From positions 1-64,000 of the forward strand of contig NZ_CAJATU010000077.1 of assembly GCF_903944925.1 (NCBI RefSeq): DNA of 64,000 bases, read 5' to 3'. Positions 39,304 through 58,215 of the stretch are shown here, piece after piece. The notes beneath the pieces are model-generated. The model worked only from the letters and a program-made list of their open reading frames with translations, ran no database searches and was not told the DNA's origin. Both the position numbers and the translations under genes were made by a program. Position 1 is the stretch's first letter, and the number at the start of each line of letters is the position of its first letter. The DNA comes from an uncultured Rhodopila sp. GTDB taxonomy: Bacteria > Pseudomonadota > Alphaproteobacteria > Acetobacterales > Acetobacteraceae.

Positions 39304-39392
39304 TGTCATGGCCGGACTTGGTCCGGCTTCCACGCCCCGCAGTGTCTGAGGCGCAAAGTCTTGGATGGCCGGACCAAGTCCGGCCATGACAC
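39304..39392. repeat. Composite intergenic palindrome (repeat family copy 4)
   Basis: GTGTCATGGCCGGACTTGG/TCCGGCTTCCACGCC at 39304-39335 and GGATGGCCGGACCAAG/TCCGGCCATGACAC at 39363-39392. The outer arms GTGTCATGGCCGGA and TCCGGCCATGACAC can also pair with each other, giving one long composite stem. It lies between the popZ stop and valS. Confidence 0.88.
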
Positions 39393-53670: not shown

Positions 53671-53703
53671 CCGTCATGGCCGGGCATGTCCCGGCCATGA
53701 CGG
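53671..53703. repeat. Intergenic palindrome (repeat family copy 7)
   Basis: CCGTCATGGCCGGG and CCCGGCCATGACGG form a perfect 14-bp stem around CATGT. Related half-elements lie at 53527-53540 (GTGTCATGGCCCGG) and 53746-53764 (GGCCAAGCCCGACCATGACAC). The gap 53507-53801 between two convergent genes holds only these. Confidence 0.85.
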
Positions 53704-53801: not shown

Positions 53802-54230
53802 CTAAGTACGAAACTCCGCCGGTACCGGCAGATTGTTCGCGGGATTGGTGTCGTGCCGCGACAAACGCAGGACCAACCCGCCGCCGACGATCCCCTGCAC
53901 ATCAGCCTCCAGCGCATCGGCAACGTCCTTGGCGTAGACTTCCTGACCGCCGGCATGCAGCGCGAATGTTCCGATGTGTTTCCGTTTCTTCTCGGGATCG
54001 TCCACTGTCGCCTTGGTCCACTTGTAGAGCGGGAAGTTTTCAGGGCCCTGCCGTTCGGCCTCGGCAACATACTTCGCAAACGCGTCGAACTGGCTGACCG
54101 CCTTCGCCTGATGGCGATCGAGGATGTCGGTCAGCGGCTTCAGCCGCCGATCGGCGGGATCGCTGCGGGCGATTTCCGCGTGCGCATCATCCAGGTAAAT
54201 GCGTATCTGATACGCCCATTGATCGCTCAA
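53802..54230 (-). CDS. Hypothetical protein with a TTG start
   Basis: A 142-residue mixed-charge protein. Without a recognised domain, it contains SDQWAYQIRIYLDD at the start, KWTKATVDDPEKKRKHIGTF in the middle and GGGLVLRLSRHDTNPANN near the end. No ATG is placed well; the TTG at 54230 has a perfect AAGGAG seven bases upstream. It lies 69 bp downstream of the ATPase-like gene on the same strand and could be part of that operon, which is unproven. Confidence 0.65.
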   Translation of the reverse strand: MSDQWAYQIRIYLDDAHAEIARSDPADRRLKPLTDILDRHQAKAVSQFDAFAKYVAEAERQGPENFPLYKWTKATVDDPEKKRKHIGTFALHAGGQEVYAKDVADALEADVQGIVGGGLVLRLSRHDTNPANNLPVPAEFRT

Positions 54231-54299: not shown

Positions 54300-54995
54300 T
54301 CACGCCGCCCGTTCCATCCGCCGTATCGGCGACAGCCCGGCATCGCCAAGCCGCAACCGATGCGTCGGCCGCACCACCGGATCGCGCAGCGCCGGTCCCG
54401 GCGCGGCCAGCCACATCACCGCCGCACCCTGCCCGCGCGCAGCCGCCCCGGCGCCGAGCAGGGCCGAACGCAGATCCTCCCCCTGCGCCGCCATCGGCAG
54501 TTCCAGGATCAGCAGCCGGGGGGAGCCGAGAAACGCCCGCACGCAGGCCGCGCGCAGCAGGTCAGGCTCCGACACCAGCCGCGCCGGCCCCGCCGGCAGC
54601 CCGGGCAACCCGAAACGCTGCGCCAGGCCCACCGCCTGCATCCGCAACGCGGCCTCGGGGATGCGCGTGTGGTGCAGCCGCCCCAGCAGCACCCGGGCGG
54701 CGACGTCCGGCGTATCGGCGCGTATCGGCTGGTGGAACAGCCGCCCGATATGGCCGCGCAGGGCATCGGCATGCTCGCGCGGCGCCGTGCTCCAGTCGCG
54801 CCCGAGGAACCGCACCTGCCCGCTCGCCAGCGGTGCCAGCCCGCTGCACAGGTCCGCGAACACTGCGCCGCGCCGCGGCCCCGGGACCTCGATCACGGCG
54901 AAATCCCCCTCGCACAGCTCAAGCCGCATCGCCGCGCGCGGCAGCGTGTCGCTGATGCCGCGCGCATCGTCCAGCGCCAGCACGGGGACCGCCAT
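54300..54995 (-). CDS. ABC-ATPase-like protein without Walker motifs (MlaF-position)
   Basis: A 231-residue protein occupying the place of an ABC ATPase after an MlaE permease. The fold is suggested by LELCEGDFAVIEVPG, LASGQVRFLGRDW, ALRGHIGRLFHQP, LAQRFGLPGLPAGPARL, DLLRAACVRAFLGSPRLLILELP and GAAVMWLAAP in the order of an ABC domain. The catalytic residues are missing: the Walker A position reads GPRRGAVFAD (no GKS/T), the signature LSGGQ is ARLVSEPD, and Walker B ends LLILELP in place of the Asp-Glu pair. The ATG at 54995 overlaps the mlaE stop by 1 bp. It may be a structural or regulatory partner rather than an ATPase. Confidence 0.78.
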   Translation of the reverse strand: MAVPVLALDDARGISDTLPRAAMRLELCEGDFAVIEVPGPRRGAVFADLCSGLAPLASGQVRFLGRDWSTAPREHADALRGHIGRLFHQPIRADTPDVAARVLLGRLHHTRIPEAALRMQAVGLAQRFGLPGLPAGPARLVSEPDLLRAACVRAFLGSPRLLILELPMAAQGEDLRSALLGAGAAARGQGAAVMWLAAPGPALRDPVVRPTHRLRLGDAGLSPIRRMERAA

Positions 54996-55783
54996 CAGAT
55001 CACCAGGCTCAGCAGCAACGTCACCGCCAGGATGGCGGTGACGCCGCGGGTGAAGCCGCCCGGCAGCAGGTTGGCGGGCGCATCGATCTCCCGGGCGCTG
55101 AGGCCGGTGGCGCAGCTCGTCAGCGCCACCATCAGCCCGATCAGCAGCAGCTTGGCGGGGAACACGACAAGGTCGGGGATCGACATCGCCCGCAGCACAT
55201 TCTCCAGGAAGCCGAAGATCGAGTTGGTCGCCACGCCCACCGCGCTGCCGGCGGCGTAGCCGCTGAACAGAGCGACCATCACGAACACCATGCCGAGGGT
55301 GAATGCCGCCACGGCAAACGCGGCGGCGCGCGGCAGGACCAGGTACTGGAAGATGTCGATCCCCTCGGCGCGCAGCACGGCGATCTCGCCGCCCGCGGTC
55401 AAGGTGCCGAGTTCGGCGACCGCCACGGTGCCGCCCCGGCCGAGCAGCACGATGCCGACAAGCAGTGGCGCCAGTTCGCGGATCAGCACCAGCACCAGGA
55501 TGCGGCCGGTCTCCTGCTGCTCCCCCGCGCTGCGCAGCCAGTACAGCGCCTCGAACACCAGACCGACGCCGATGATCACCGCCGTGACGGCGACGGTGCC
55601 GAGCGAGCCGGCGACGGTCCGGGTCAGGGTCGCGCGGTATTCCGCCCGCACGGTGCGGCGCCAGGTGGACGGTTGCGCGCCCTCCCGCAATACGCCCCAG
55701 AGCAGCGCGGCGAGTTGCAGCATGAAGGCGGAGCGCCGCCGCACCGCCGCGCCGATGATGCCGAACAGCCGCAACGCGATCAC
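54995..55783 (-). CDS. MlaE-type ABC lipid permease
   Basis: A 262-residue membrane protein of the MlaE/YrbE family, whose relatives move phospholipid across the inner membrane. Family blocks are LVLVLIRELAPLLVGIVLLGRGGTVAVAELGTLTAGGEIAVLRAEGIDIFQYLVLPR (residues about 90-150) and the later FGFLENVLRAMSIPDLVVFPAK. Five helices are visible. Its ATG overlaps the sensor stop by 4 bp. MlaD, MlaC and MlaB genes are not adjacent. Confidence 0.88.
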   Translation of the reverse strand: MIALRLFGIIGAAVRRRSAFMLQLAALLWGVLREGAQPSTWRRTVRAEYRATLTRTVAGSLGTVAVTAVIIGVGLVFEALYWLRSAGEQQETGRILVLVLIRELAPLLVGIVLLGRGGTVAVAELGTLTAGGEIAVLRAEGIDIFQYLVLPRAAAFAVAAFTLGMVFVMVALFSGYAAGSAVGVATNSIFGFLENVLRAMSIPDLVVFPAKLLLIGLMVALTSCATGLSAREIDAPANLLPGGFTRGVTAILAVTLLLSLVI

Positions 55784-58188
55784 GCCCGCCCGGCGAGGAT
55801 AAAGCTGCGGGTCTCACCGGTGCGCGGCCGGTGAAACAGGCCGCGCGGACGGAACAGGAAGCCCTGGCGCAGCAGGCGGTAGGCCTGCTCGCTGGCCTGG
55901 ATGCCGCCATCCGGGGCGGACGCGGCGAGTGCTTCCGCCCCCTGCGCCGCCTCGCCCCACAGGTTGAACAGGCCGGGCGGGCTGCCCAGCGTGGCGCCGG
56001 TGGCCGCACCGGCGTCGAGGCCGATGCCGAACGGGGCGGCATCGTCGATGGGGTCGAACAGGGCGGCGCAACGCTCACGCAGGGCGATCGCCGTATCGGC
56101 CAGCCGCGCCGCGGCGTCGCCGTCGGGTTGCTCGCCGTATCCGGCGGCGCAGACGATCGTGGCGCCGAGCATTTTGACGTAGGGCACGCCATGCGCGGCG
56201 GCGATTTCCTGCGCCGCGCAGGCGATCCGATTGGCCAGCGTGTCGGGCGAACCTGTCTCCGCCGGCTGCGCCAGCACCGCATCCGGCAGGCGCAGCGCCA
56301 GTACCACGGCGCGGGCGCCGTGGCTTTCCCCGGCCGCCAGCGCCGGATCGAGCCCCCGATCGTCCGGTGCCGGTGCCGGCCCGGTCCCGGCGACCGCCGC
56401 GCGGCTTCGCGGCGGCGCGGGAGTCTCCGGCGGGATCTGCAACGCGACCAGCGTGGCGCAGGCGCGGACCAGGTCGACGGCGGTTTCCTCGCGGCGCGAA
56501 TCCTCCAGCATCAGCATGCCGACGGTCTGTTCAGCCTGCCGTATCGGCACGACGAGCAATCCGGCGCTGCCGAACGACGCCATCAGCGAGGCGTGCAGCG
56601 CTGCGGTGCGGCGGTCGCGGGCTGCGTCGGGGATGGCGATCTCCTCGCCGCGCAGCAGCGCCTGGATGAAAGCCGGTGCCTCCTGGCCCGAGAGTTCCAG
56701 ACCGCCGACATGGCCGCCGGTGGCGGGCTCGTAGCTGTCCTCGCAGCGCAGGGTCTGGCCGTTGCCGAGCAGCCGCCACAGCCCGGCGCGGCGGGCGCCG
56801 GTGGCCGCCGCCAGAGTCTCGGCTAACGCCGGCGGCGGCCTGCCGTCGGCGTCGAACTGCCCGGATTCGGCCGCCAGCCGGGCGAACGCGGCGCCTTGCT
56901 GCCGCAGCGCCTCCGACCGCTCCTGCACCGCGCGCGCCGCCCGGTCGGATTTCAGCCCCTGCCGCACCAGCAGCGCCGCGAGACCGATGGCCAGCGTCAC
57001 GACGCTGAGCGACAGCAGCGCGGCGCGGCGCGAATTGGCGGTGACGAAGCCGCTGAATTCGGCCTCCGGCACGGTCAGCAGCAGCAGCCAGCCCTGGCTG
57101 CCCGATAGCGGCGTGACGATGGAGATCAGCCGCCGCCCGCCGGCTTCGATGACGCGGTCGCCGGGGCCGTGCGCGCGGTAATGGTCCCAGCTTCCGGCGG
57201 CGTCCGGGTCGCCGATATCGCCGATGGAGGCGGGAACGAGCTGGTTGTCGCGGGTTTGCAGGATGCGGGCGGGGTCCGGGCCGGCGATCATCGTGCCGTC
57301 CTTGTCGACGATATAGGCTTTGCCGGATTGGCCGATGGCGAGGCCGCCGAGGAAGCGGGACAGCGCGTCCAGCCGGATGTCCACGCCGACGATGTCGGGG
57401 TTCTCGTCCGGGCCGTGCACGGCGGCGGTGATGCCGGGGGCGCGTTCGGAGAAGAAGACATAGACGCCGCTCCAGAACACGTCATCGGCGGCGCGGGCGC
57501 CGGTGTACCAGGAGCGGGTGCGGGCGTCGTAGTCGTCGTTGGGGTCCTGGTGGCGGTCGGTTATGTGGCCTGCCTTGTCGCGGGTGAGCCATTCGACCGT
57601 GCGGCCGTTCTGCGCGGTCAGGATGCGCTTGGTTTCGGTGGCTCCGGCCTCGCCCCGGCGGACCAGCAGGAAGTTGCCGGCGGCATCGGCGAACTCGATA
57701 TTGGCGATCTGCGGCGTCTCGGCCAATTCCGACGCGGCGAAGTCGTAGGCTTGCTGGGCGCCGGCGGTGGCGCCGCCGCGGCCGATGATGCTCTGGGCGA
57801 GCAGCACGGCGCGGGCGGCGGGTTGCAGGTAGGCGGAGACCTGCAGCGCGATGCGGTCCTGGAGGTTGTGCAGCAGCGAGTCGGACAGGCCGAGCACGCC
57901 GGCGCGGTTGGCGCTGTCGGCGTAGACGGCGATGCCGAGCAGGAAGCCGATGATCAGGCTGACACCGGCGACGGGGAGGGCGACGCGCAGCAGGGTGCCG
58001 CGCCGGCGGCTACGCTCCGCCAGCGGGTCTACGTCGATGTCGATGATATCCTGCCGGTGGGCCAGGCGGGGCGTCCCTTGCGCTGCGTCCGCGTGAGACT
58101 GCCATATCGGGGCGGCCGGCTCTACTGCCGGGGCGGGCTGAGGCTGGGTTCGGGCGGGAACGCGGCGATGAACGGCACCCTGTGTCAT
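55780..58188 (-). CDS. Membrane sensor: dCache, GAF and degenerate class III cyclase domain
   Basis: An 802-residue protein. A Pro-rich cytoplasmic start precedes helix 1 (about 68-90); a double-Cache periplasmic domain (about 91-385) carries YDARTRSWYTGA and GVDIRLD; helix 2 is 389-409; a GAF-like domain covers about 450-585; the end (about 625-800) is collinear with class III nucleotidyl cyclases (PFGIGLDAGAATGATLG, FNLWGEAA, GFLFRPRGLFHR). The metal and transition-state residues of active cyclases are replaced: KMLGATI in place of K.xGD, and NLWGEAAQGAEA where N...R are expected. So it is probably a pseudocyclase. The start codon used (58188) lies in a palindromic repeat; no better start is visible. 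It is first of three coupled genes. Confidence 0.82.
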   Translation of the reverse strand: MTQGAVHRRVPARTQPQPAPAVEPAAPIWQSHADAAQGTPRLAHRQDIIDIDVDPLAERSRRRGTLLRVALPVAGVSLIIGFLLGIAVYADSANRAGVLGLSDSLLHNLQDRIALQVSAYLQPAARAVLLAQSIIGRGGATAGAQQAYDFAASELAETPQIANIEFADAAGNFLLVRRGEAGATETKRILTAQNGRTVEWLTRDKAGHITDRHQDPNDDYDARTRSWYTGARAADDVFWSGVYVFFSERAPGITAAVHGPDENPDIVGVDIRLDALSRFLGGLAIGQSGKAYIVDKDGTMIAGPDPARILQTRDNQLVPASIGDIGDPDAAGSWDHYRAHGPGDRVIEAGGRRLISIVTPLSGSQGWLLLLTVPEAEFSGFVTANSRRAALLSLSVVTLAIGLAALLVRQGLKSDRAARAVQERSEALRQQGAAFARLAAESGQFDADGRPPPALAETLAAATGARRAGLWRLLGNGQTLRCEDSYEPATGGHVGGLELSGQEAPAFIQALLRGEEIAIPDAARDRRTAALHASLMASFGSAGLLVVPIRQAEQTVGMLMLEDSRREETAVDLVRACATLVALQIPPETPAPPRSRAAVAGTGPAPAPDDRGLDPALAAGESHGARAVVLALRLPDAVLAQPAETGSPDTLANRIACAAQEIAAAHGVPYVKMLGATIVCAAGYGEQPDGDAAARLADTAIALRERCAALFDPIDDAAPFGIGLDAGAATGATLGSPPGLFNLWGEAAQGAEALAASAPDGGIQASEQAYRLLRQGFLFRPRGLFHRPRTGETRSFILAGRA

Positions 58189-58215
58189 GGCCGGATTTAA
58201 TCCGGCCATGACACA
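58181..58215. repeat. Perfect palindrome overlapping the sensor start (repeat family copy 8)
   Basis: TGTGTCATGGCCGGAT (58181-58196) and ATCCGGCCATGACACA (58200-58215) are exact complements around TTA. The probable ATG of the sensor gene (58186-58188, minus strand) is in this arm, so an mRNA stem would occlude the start. ALDH ends 38 bp further on. Confidence 0.9.

Follow-up and report, generated by a model that had tools for sequence, protein, structure and literature searches.

A candidate five-gene MCE lipid-transport operon with a pseudo-ATPase and a receptor in an uncultured Rhodopila and its relatives

Three adjoining genes were analyzed in a 64,000-nucleotide stretch of DNA from an uncultured Rhodopila sp. 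(NCBI RefSeq assembly GCF_903944925.1, contig NZ_CAJATU010000077.1, positions 1 to 64,000; hereafter the window). They encode a membrane-bound sensor, an MlaE-type permease and a protein related to the ATPases of ATP-binding cassette (ABC) transporters that lacks the nucleotide-binding motifs, here called the pseudo-ATPase. The features of the locus, in window positions, are as follows.

55780–58188, minus strand: sensor gene, 802 amino acids, with an N-terminal tail, a transmembrane helix, a periplasmic dCache domain, a second transmembrane helix, a GAF domain and a pseudo-class-III-cyclase domain (family alignment A3)
57082–57579, minus strand: dCache_1 domain of the sensor (Pfam span)
56434–56826, minus strand: GAF domain of the sensor
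55798–56223, minus strand: class III cyclase-like domain of the sensor, without catalytic residues
54995–55783, minus strand: MlaE-type permease gene, 262 amino acids, GTG start, a subfamily of its own
54300–54995, minus strand: pseudo-ATPase gene, ABC fold family, 231 amino acids
54861–54887, minus strand: Walker A equivalent of the pseudo-ATPase, VPGPRRGAV
54552–54575, minus strand: ABC signature equivalent of the pseudo-ATPase, VSEPDLLR
54495–54515, minus strand: Walker B equivalent of the pseudo-ATPase, LLILELP

The sensor stop codon and the permease start codon overlap by 4 nucleotides (GTGA), and the permease and pseudo-ATPase genes overlap by 1 nucleotide (TGATG). An earlier note on this DNA, made from the sequence alone, had reported the same overlaps and taken the genes to be translationally coupled; its coordinates were correct, with all three genes on the minus strand. 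Its assignment of the three products also held: the sensor carries the named dCache, GAF and cyclase domains in Pfam and has lost the catalytic residues of the last, the permease matches MlaE (PF02405) at E 5.4e-35, and an alignment of 61 sequences confirmed an ATPase-like protein without nucleotide motifs. Against TIGR00056 and the NCBIfam MlaE model, the permease falls well short of the curated cut-offs. No STAS domain was matched on it in the Pfam scan, which found only MlaE; no genome-wide search for MlaB, MlaC or MlaA was made.

Conservation was assessed in 61 fetched loci (L034–L074 and L089–L108), of which L036 and L091 lie on the same contig, leaving 60 distinct loci. The permease and pseudo-ATPase genes adjoin on one strand in all 60. 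In 58 of them the sensor gene is found upstream in the same orientation; these include one locus with a broken sensor (L052), one decaying locus (L073) and one with about 1 kb between sensor and permease (L069). The three-gene order is therefore neither unique to one genome nor broken up in relatives, as expected of the conserved unit that had been proposed. The gap between the permease and pseudo-ATPase genes is −4 to +10 nucleotides in 29 of 41 loci (L034–L074, with automatic choice of starts), and the proteins of relatives are as little as about 25–35% identical to those of the window.

In 59 of the 60 loci the next gene on the same strand encodes an MCE protein of the MlaD type, which starts −33 to +141 nucleotides from the end of the ATPase match. 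These proteins, about 290–350 amino acids long, consist of an MCE domain and a long C-terminal region, and all three that were scanned exceed the Pfam cut-off for MlaD. A gene for a lipoprotein resembling tetratricopeptide repeat (TPR) proteins follows in 56 loci; it was not found in L034, in L045 and L054, where the contigs end, or in the decayed L073. The TPR assignment is weak, with sub-threshold TPR matches in two of three lipoproteins scanned and no relevant match in the third. A lipobox pattern is present in 51 of 58 TPR-like proteins, and none of these 51 has Asp at position +2. The MCE and TPR-like genes were first noticed behind the pseudo-ATPase in L092 and L094.

The one locus without the neighboring MCE gene, L034, also belongs to an uncultured Rhodopila; its MlaE protein is 95% identical to the window permease, and it shares long DNA matches of 87–95% identity with the window genome. 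The window's contig gave no MlaD match. In the window genome the MCE gene lies on another contig (G000:C86:99053-100006, equivalent to L117:6054-7007), together with the TPR-like gene (L117:7004-7870). The absence of MlaD claimed in the earlier note is therefore correct for this place, but it extends neither to the genome nor to the family. Directly before the relocated pair stands a glycosyl hydrolase family 5 gene (cellulase, PF00150, E 2e-30; L117:4683-5981). Behind the window's pseudo-ATPase there is an open frame of 142 amino acids on the minus strand (53802–54230), which has no Pfam match and lies inside the DNA match to L034.

Across 150 genomes of the same taxonomic family, probably the Acetobacteraceae given the closeness of the window genome to the Rhodopila of L034, strong matches to the pseudo-ATPase, the permease subfamily and the MCE subfamily occur in exactly the same 46, the window genome among them. 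The cut-offs were E ≤2.2e-13 for the pseudo-ATPase (next match 5.6e-9), at least 105 bits for the permease subfamily (all others at most 90) and E 1e-15 for the MCE subfamily; up to 19 pseudo-ATPase candidates were scored per genome, and a cross-check with the MlaE profile returned the same 46 genomes. The sensor is present in these 46 and in G108 and G091, whose contigs end inside the sensor gene, and the sensor profile has matches in 55 of the 150. Within the window's own genus, G556 carries the unit and G099 and G594 do not. The five proteins have distance matrices that are correlated with one another (r 0.51–0.91), which is expected from shared descent alone and is not used as evidence here.

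Outside the family, strong matches among 385 genomes of the class were found only in G500 and G185, both of which carry the sensor, pseudo-ATPase and MCE genes. Among 398 genomes of the phylum, G185 matched and, weakly (113 bits), G660. Up to six candidates per genome were scored in the class and phylum searches, and rare misses are possible. The copy in G500 (L089), which belongs to another family of the class, is 66–70% identical to the window proteins and is closer to them than most of the family copies compared; by this measure it is a candidate for horizontal transfer.

The pseudo-ATPase of the window alone is a poor match to ABC_tran (E 0.2, below the Pfam cut-off). Eighteen of 32 family members reach E ≤0.01 individually, the best at 4.4e-7; the window protein is not one of them. 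A profile of all 32 (A1), compared with PDB sequences, matches MacB at E 5.3e-18 over positions 6–212, MlaF at E 3.7e-14, and also LolD. Membership of the ABC ATPase fold family is thus secure at the level of sequence, because most of the family profile aligns with structurally characterized ABC ATPases.

Motifs were compared in 61 distinct sequences, with the conventional MlaF-like protein from the window genome (L076) as the reference in the alignment; the L073 sequence lacks two of the sites. The Walker A Lys is absent from all 60 sequences covering the site, and none of those compared has the ABC signature glycines. The position of the Walker B Asp is occupied by Glu in 58 of 61 and by Asp in one (L070), the Glu that follows it is kept in 10, and two sequences, L054 and L095, retain the switch His. 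An ATPase that is dead in this strain only was considered and rejected, as the motifs are lost across the family alignment. Judged by its nucleotide-binding motifs, which define an ATP-driven ABC transporter, the unit falls outside that class; in architecture it is MCE/Mla-like.

Other parts of the protein are well conserved. All 32 sequences of A1 share R80, G84, P131, G132, P134, D145, R153 and A154 without exception. The majority residue accounts for a fraction of 0.23–0.62 in the Walker A columns and for mostly 0.8–1.0 in the segments LRGxIGR, HHT, FGLPGLP and VRAFLGxPxL, against a protein mean of 0.55. The ratio of nonsynonymous to synonymous substitution rates (dN/dS) between related pairs was 0.05–0.34 in seven of eight comparisons, the eighth being saturated. 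The nucleotide motifs are lost and yet dN/dS is low; thus the pseudo-ATPase is retained for a role that differs from the usual hydrolysis of ATP.

These values also bear on whether the genes are merely the relic of a degenerating Mla operon. Such decay does occur: in genomes of about 2 Mb, one copy is in fragments (L073, G126), one has a broken sensor (L052, G136) and one has a stop within the ATPase match (G066). The window genome itself has the operon in two separate parts. However, the dN/dS range, the residues invariant across 32 diverse sequences and the identical genome sets make a functionless remnant very improbable, and this explanation was set aside for the family as a whole on the basis of dN/dS.

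The main rival explanation is a hybrid transporter, in which the permease would draw on a canonical MlaF from another locus, and the pseudo-ATPase would be its inactive partner in an asymmetric pair or would act as a regulator. ABC ATPases are known to form such pairs, in which one half is degenerate; a conventional MlaF-like gene is present in the window genome (L076:5056-5889), next to one of the two further MlaE genes there; and the strong conservation of pseudo-ATPase residues outside the nucleotide site would suit such a role. However, neither composite site would be complete with a partner that lacks Walker A, the signature and the Walker B Asp. A motif pattern that does find the MlaF of the window genome finds no conventional ABC ATPase in the 61 fetched stretches. 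The invariable adjacency of the permease and pseudo-ATPase genes favors these two as the cognate pair, and we consider the hybrid arrangement unlikely.

The sensor matches dCache_1 at residues 204–369 (E 4.6e-12), GAF at residues 455–585 (E 5.3e-11) and Guanylate_cyc at residues 656–797 (E 8.3e-6); its two membrane helices were read by eye, not from a prediction tool. The solved sequences closest to its dCache domain are those of chemoreceptors, including the amino-acid chemoreceptors PctA, PctB and PctC. Residue counts were made in 57 distinct sensors of at least 650 amino acids. The five positions of the dCache_1AA motif (aromatic, Arg, aromatic pair, Asp), taken in part from the available sections of PMC10104139, are all present in 19 of these, and 23 more have Asn in place of Asp. 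Arg225 is kept in 47 and Asp270 in 19, with Asn at position 270 in 35; the window sensor has Asp. Since the full motif occurs in 19 of 57 sensors, amino acids or amines are candidate ligands.

In the cyclase domain of the window sensor the second metal Asp is replaced by Ala676, the transition-state Asn by Gln749 and the Arg by Ala753. Among the 57 sensors these residues are kept in one, four and four, respectively, and never two together; the position of the first metal Asp is uncertain. By these residues the domain lacks a full catalytic set in 57 of 57 sensors and is a pseudocyclase. No other output domain was recognized in the window sensor by the Pfam scan.

With both enzymatic domains apparently dead and the receptor linked in 58 of 60 loci, the permease and pseudo-ATPase might instead form a sensing complex that reads the lipid state of the membrane and passes it to the receptor, on the model of BceAB-BceS, an ABC-type sensor. 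Against this, the pseudocyclase is the only recognized output domain through which the receptor could signal, linkage of the MCE protein is no looser than that of the permease, and two loci keep the permease, pseudo-ATPase, MCE and TPR genes without a receptor. The last two observations favor a role in transport, and a pure sensing complex seems improbable.

A relative of the operon with an intact motor was found in G660, a proteobacterium of another class (L124). Its four genes, for permease, ABC subunit, MCE protein and TPR lipoprotein, follow the same order, with no sensor; a TetR-type regulator gene lies upstream instead. The ABC subunit matches ABC_tran at E 4.9e-18 and has intact Walker A (GPNGNGKTT), Walker B (IDEP) and switch His, with an altered signature (FMSELQRR). 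Among the proteins compared, G660 provides the best match outside the family to all four profiles, scoring 114 bits against 63 for the next match with the permease, 98 against 26 with the MCE protein and 39 against nothing with the TPR protein. A search of 249 genomes for relatives of its lipoprotein returned only G660 itself. The combination of intact Walker motifs and no sensor suggests that the family version lost its motor and gained a receptor, with one genome representing the active relative.

Several described MCE systems are comparable. The membrane proteins PqiA and LetA, unlike the permease here, are not known to be of the MlaE type. PqiABC and LetAB resemble the present operon in that they are MCE systems whose inner-membrane protein is without an ATPase domain (available sections of PMC12436622). 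A close likeness is to MpcEFDA of Brucella abortus, a chimeric Mla-Pqi system which, according to the same sections, has the order permease, ATPase, MCE protein and lipoprotein; its four proteins co-purify and a trans-envelope channel has been proposed. The order of permease, ABC subunit, long MCE protein and lipoprotein recurs here in 56 of 60 loci, and Mpc is described there as being without MlaC. In contrast, MpcF, a homologue of MlaF, is an ABC ATPase where the ATPase here is dead, MpcE carries a STAS domain where Pfam finds none on the window permease, MpcA is PqiC-like where the lipoprotein here is TPR-like (not PqiC-like in three scanned), and no receptor is mentioned for Mpc in the sections of PMC12436622 available.

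E. coli MlaFEDB likewise combines an MlaE-family permease, an ABC-fold subunit and an MCE protein. E. coli MlaF requires Walker A and Walker B, as mutants in either fail to complement (available sections of PMC7367683), whereas both are lost across the family here, and a receptor and a TPR-like lipoprotein are added. The receptor and dead ATPase support the earlier view that the unit differs from E. coli Mla. Like the present unit, the MlaEFD found in Veillonella and in further diderms with long MlaD proteins has a minimal E-F-D core, and its MCE protein exceeds the E. coli one in length; it differs in that its ABC subunit closely resembles those of model diderms and its MlaD ends in a beta-barrel. 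These long MlaD proteins have been proposed to bridge the envelope in a trans-envelope MlaEFD (available sections of PMC10665443). An operon with a pseudo-ATPase and a receptor was not described in the literature searched, which was mostly open-access.

In the best reading of these comparisons, the operon would be akin to Mla and Brucella Mpc and would form an Mpc-like lipid conduit, since Mpc shares its gene order and long MlaD proteins have been proposed as bridges. The three genes would be the first three of five in an MCE lipid-transport operon, in the order sensor, MlaE-type permease, pseudo-ATPase, MCE protein and TPR-like lipoprotein, in which the ATPase has become a structural pseudo-ATPase and gating by the receptor is probable. 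We give this explanation a probability of roughly 0.5. It builds on gene order, co-occurrence, product families, the loss of nucleotide motifs and of cyclase residues, and purifying selection, and the function is deduced from these.

The permease and pseudo-ATPase would form an inner-membrane complex similar to E2F2. From it the MCE protein would reach towards the outer membrane, where the lipoprotein would receive it, as proposed for Mpc and long MlaD proteins. Because the usual binding of ATP is hardly possible, the complex would pass lipids without hydrolysis or act as a gated conduit. The dCache domain of the receptor would sense a small periplasmic ligand and the GAF domain perhaps a cytoplasmic one, and a pseudocyclase domain touching the pseudo-ATPase would probably set the open or closed state. 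G660 would represent the form with a working ATPase and no sensor.

Several observations weigh against this reading. An MlaE system without ATPase activity contradicts the results with E. coli MlaF mutants in the available sections of PMC7367683. Another ATPase could serve in trans, as each of the 46 unit-bearing genomes has at least one further MlaE match. Two pseudo-ATPases keep the switch His and one the Walker B Asp, and on the pseudo-ATPase profile the ABC subunit of G660 is only slightly ahead of the window genome's ordinary MlaF (48 against 43 bits). The unit is absent from 104 of the 150 family genomes, 103 of which have ordinary MlaE matches only and one none. An AlphaFold2 model of the pseudo-ATPase, built from four sequences, had a mean predicted local distance difference test score of 45 and was not used. 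No sensor was found in L092 and L094, both from one genus, and the sensor profile finds none in either genome. Since these loci keep the core without it, the receptor looks accessory. The ligand-regulated system of the earlier note is thus plausible as regards the resemblance of the dCache domain to PctA, PctB and PctC, and is weakened by the two sensor-free loci.

A more specific form of the conduit model, which we regard as doubtful though possible, is an ABC-type inter-membrane lipid transporter that works free of ATP. Here MlaE would be a ligand-gated lipid channel, a pair of pseudo-ATPases would relay the state of the two-pass dead-cyclase receptor, and the two pseudoenzymes together would be the gate.

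The energy need of MCE bridges and the direction of lipid movement through them are debated. A family that keeps the MlaE-ABC-MCE architecture without the motor, together with a relative that still has it, offers a direct comparison. It is also a case of an envelope lipid conduit that seems to be under the control of a receptor through contact between proteins, with neither ATP nor a second messenger as the means. Acetic-acid-type bacteria live with strong membrane stress.

A palindromic repeat was also observed in the window. The pattern TCATGGCCGG-N7-CCGGCCATGA occurs in six copies at up to 3 mismatches, against 0.01 expected; the same pattern with an 8-base spacer gave no match. Four copies are at 39363, 42277, 42336 and 50638. 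Two perfect copies (53674–53700 and 58185–58211) flank the three-gene unit, and the sensor ATG lies inside one of them.

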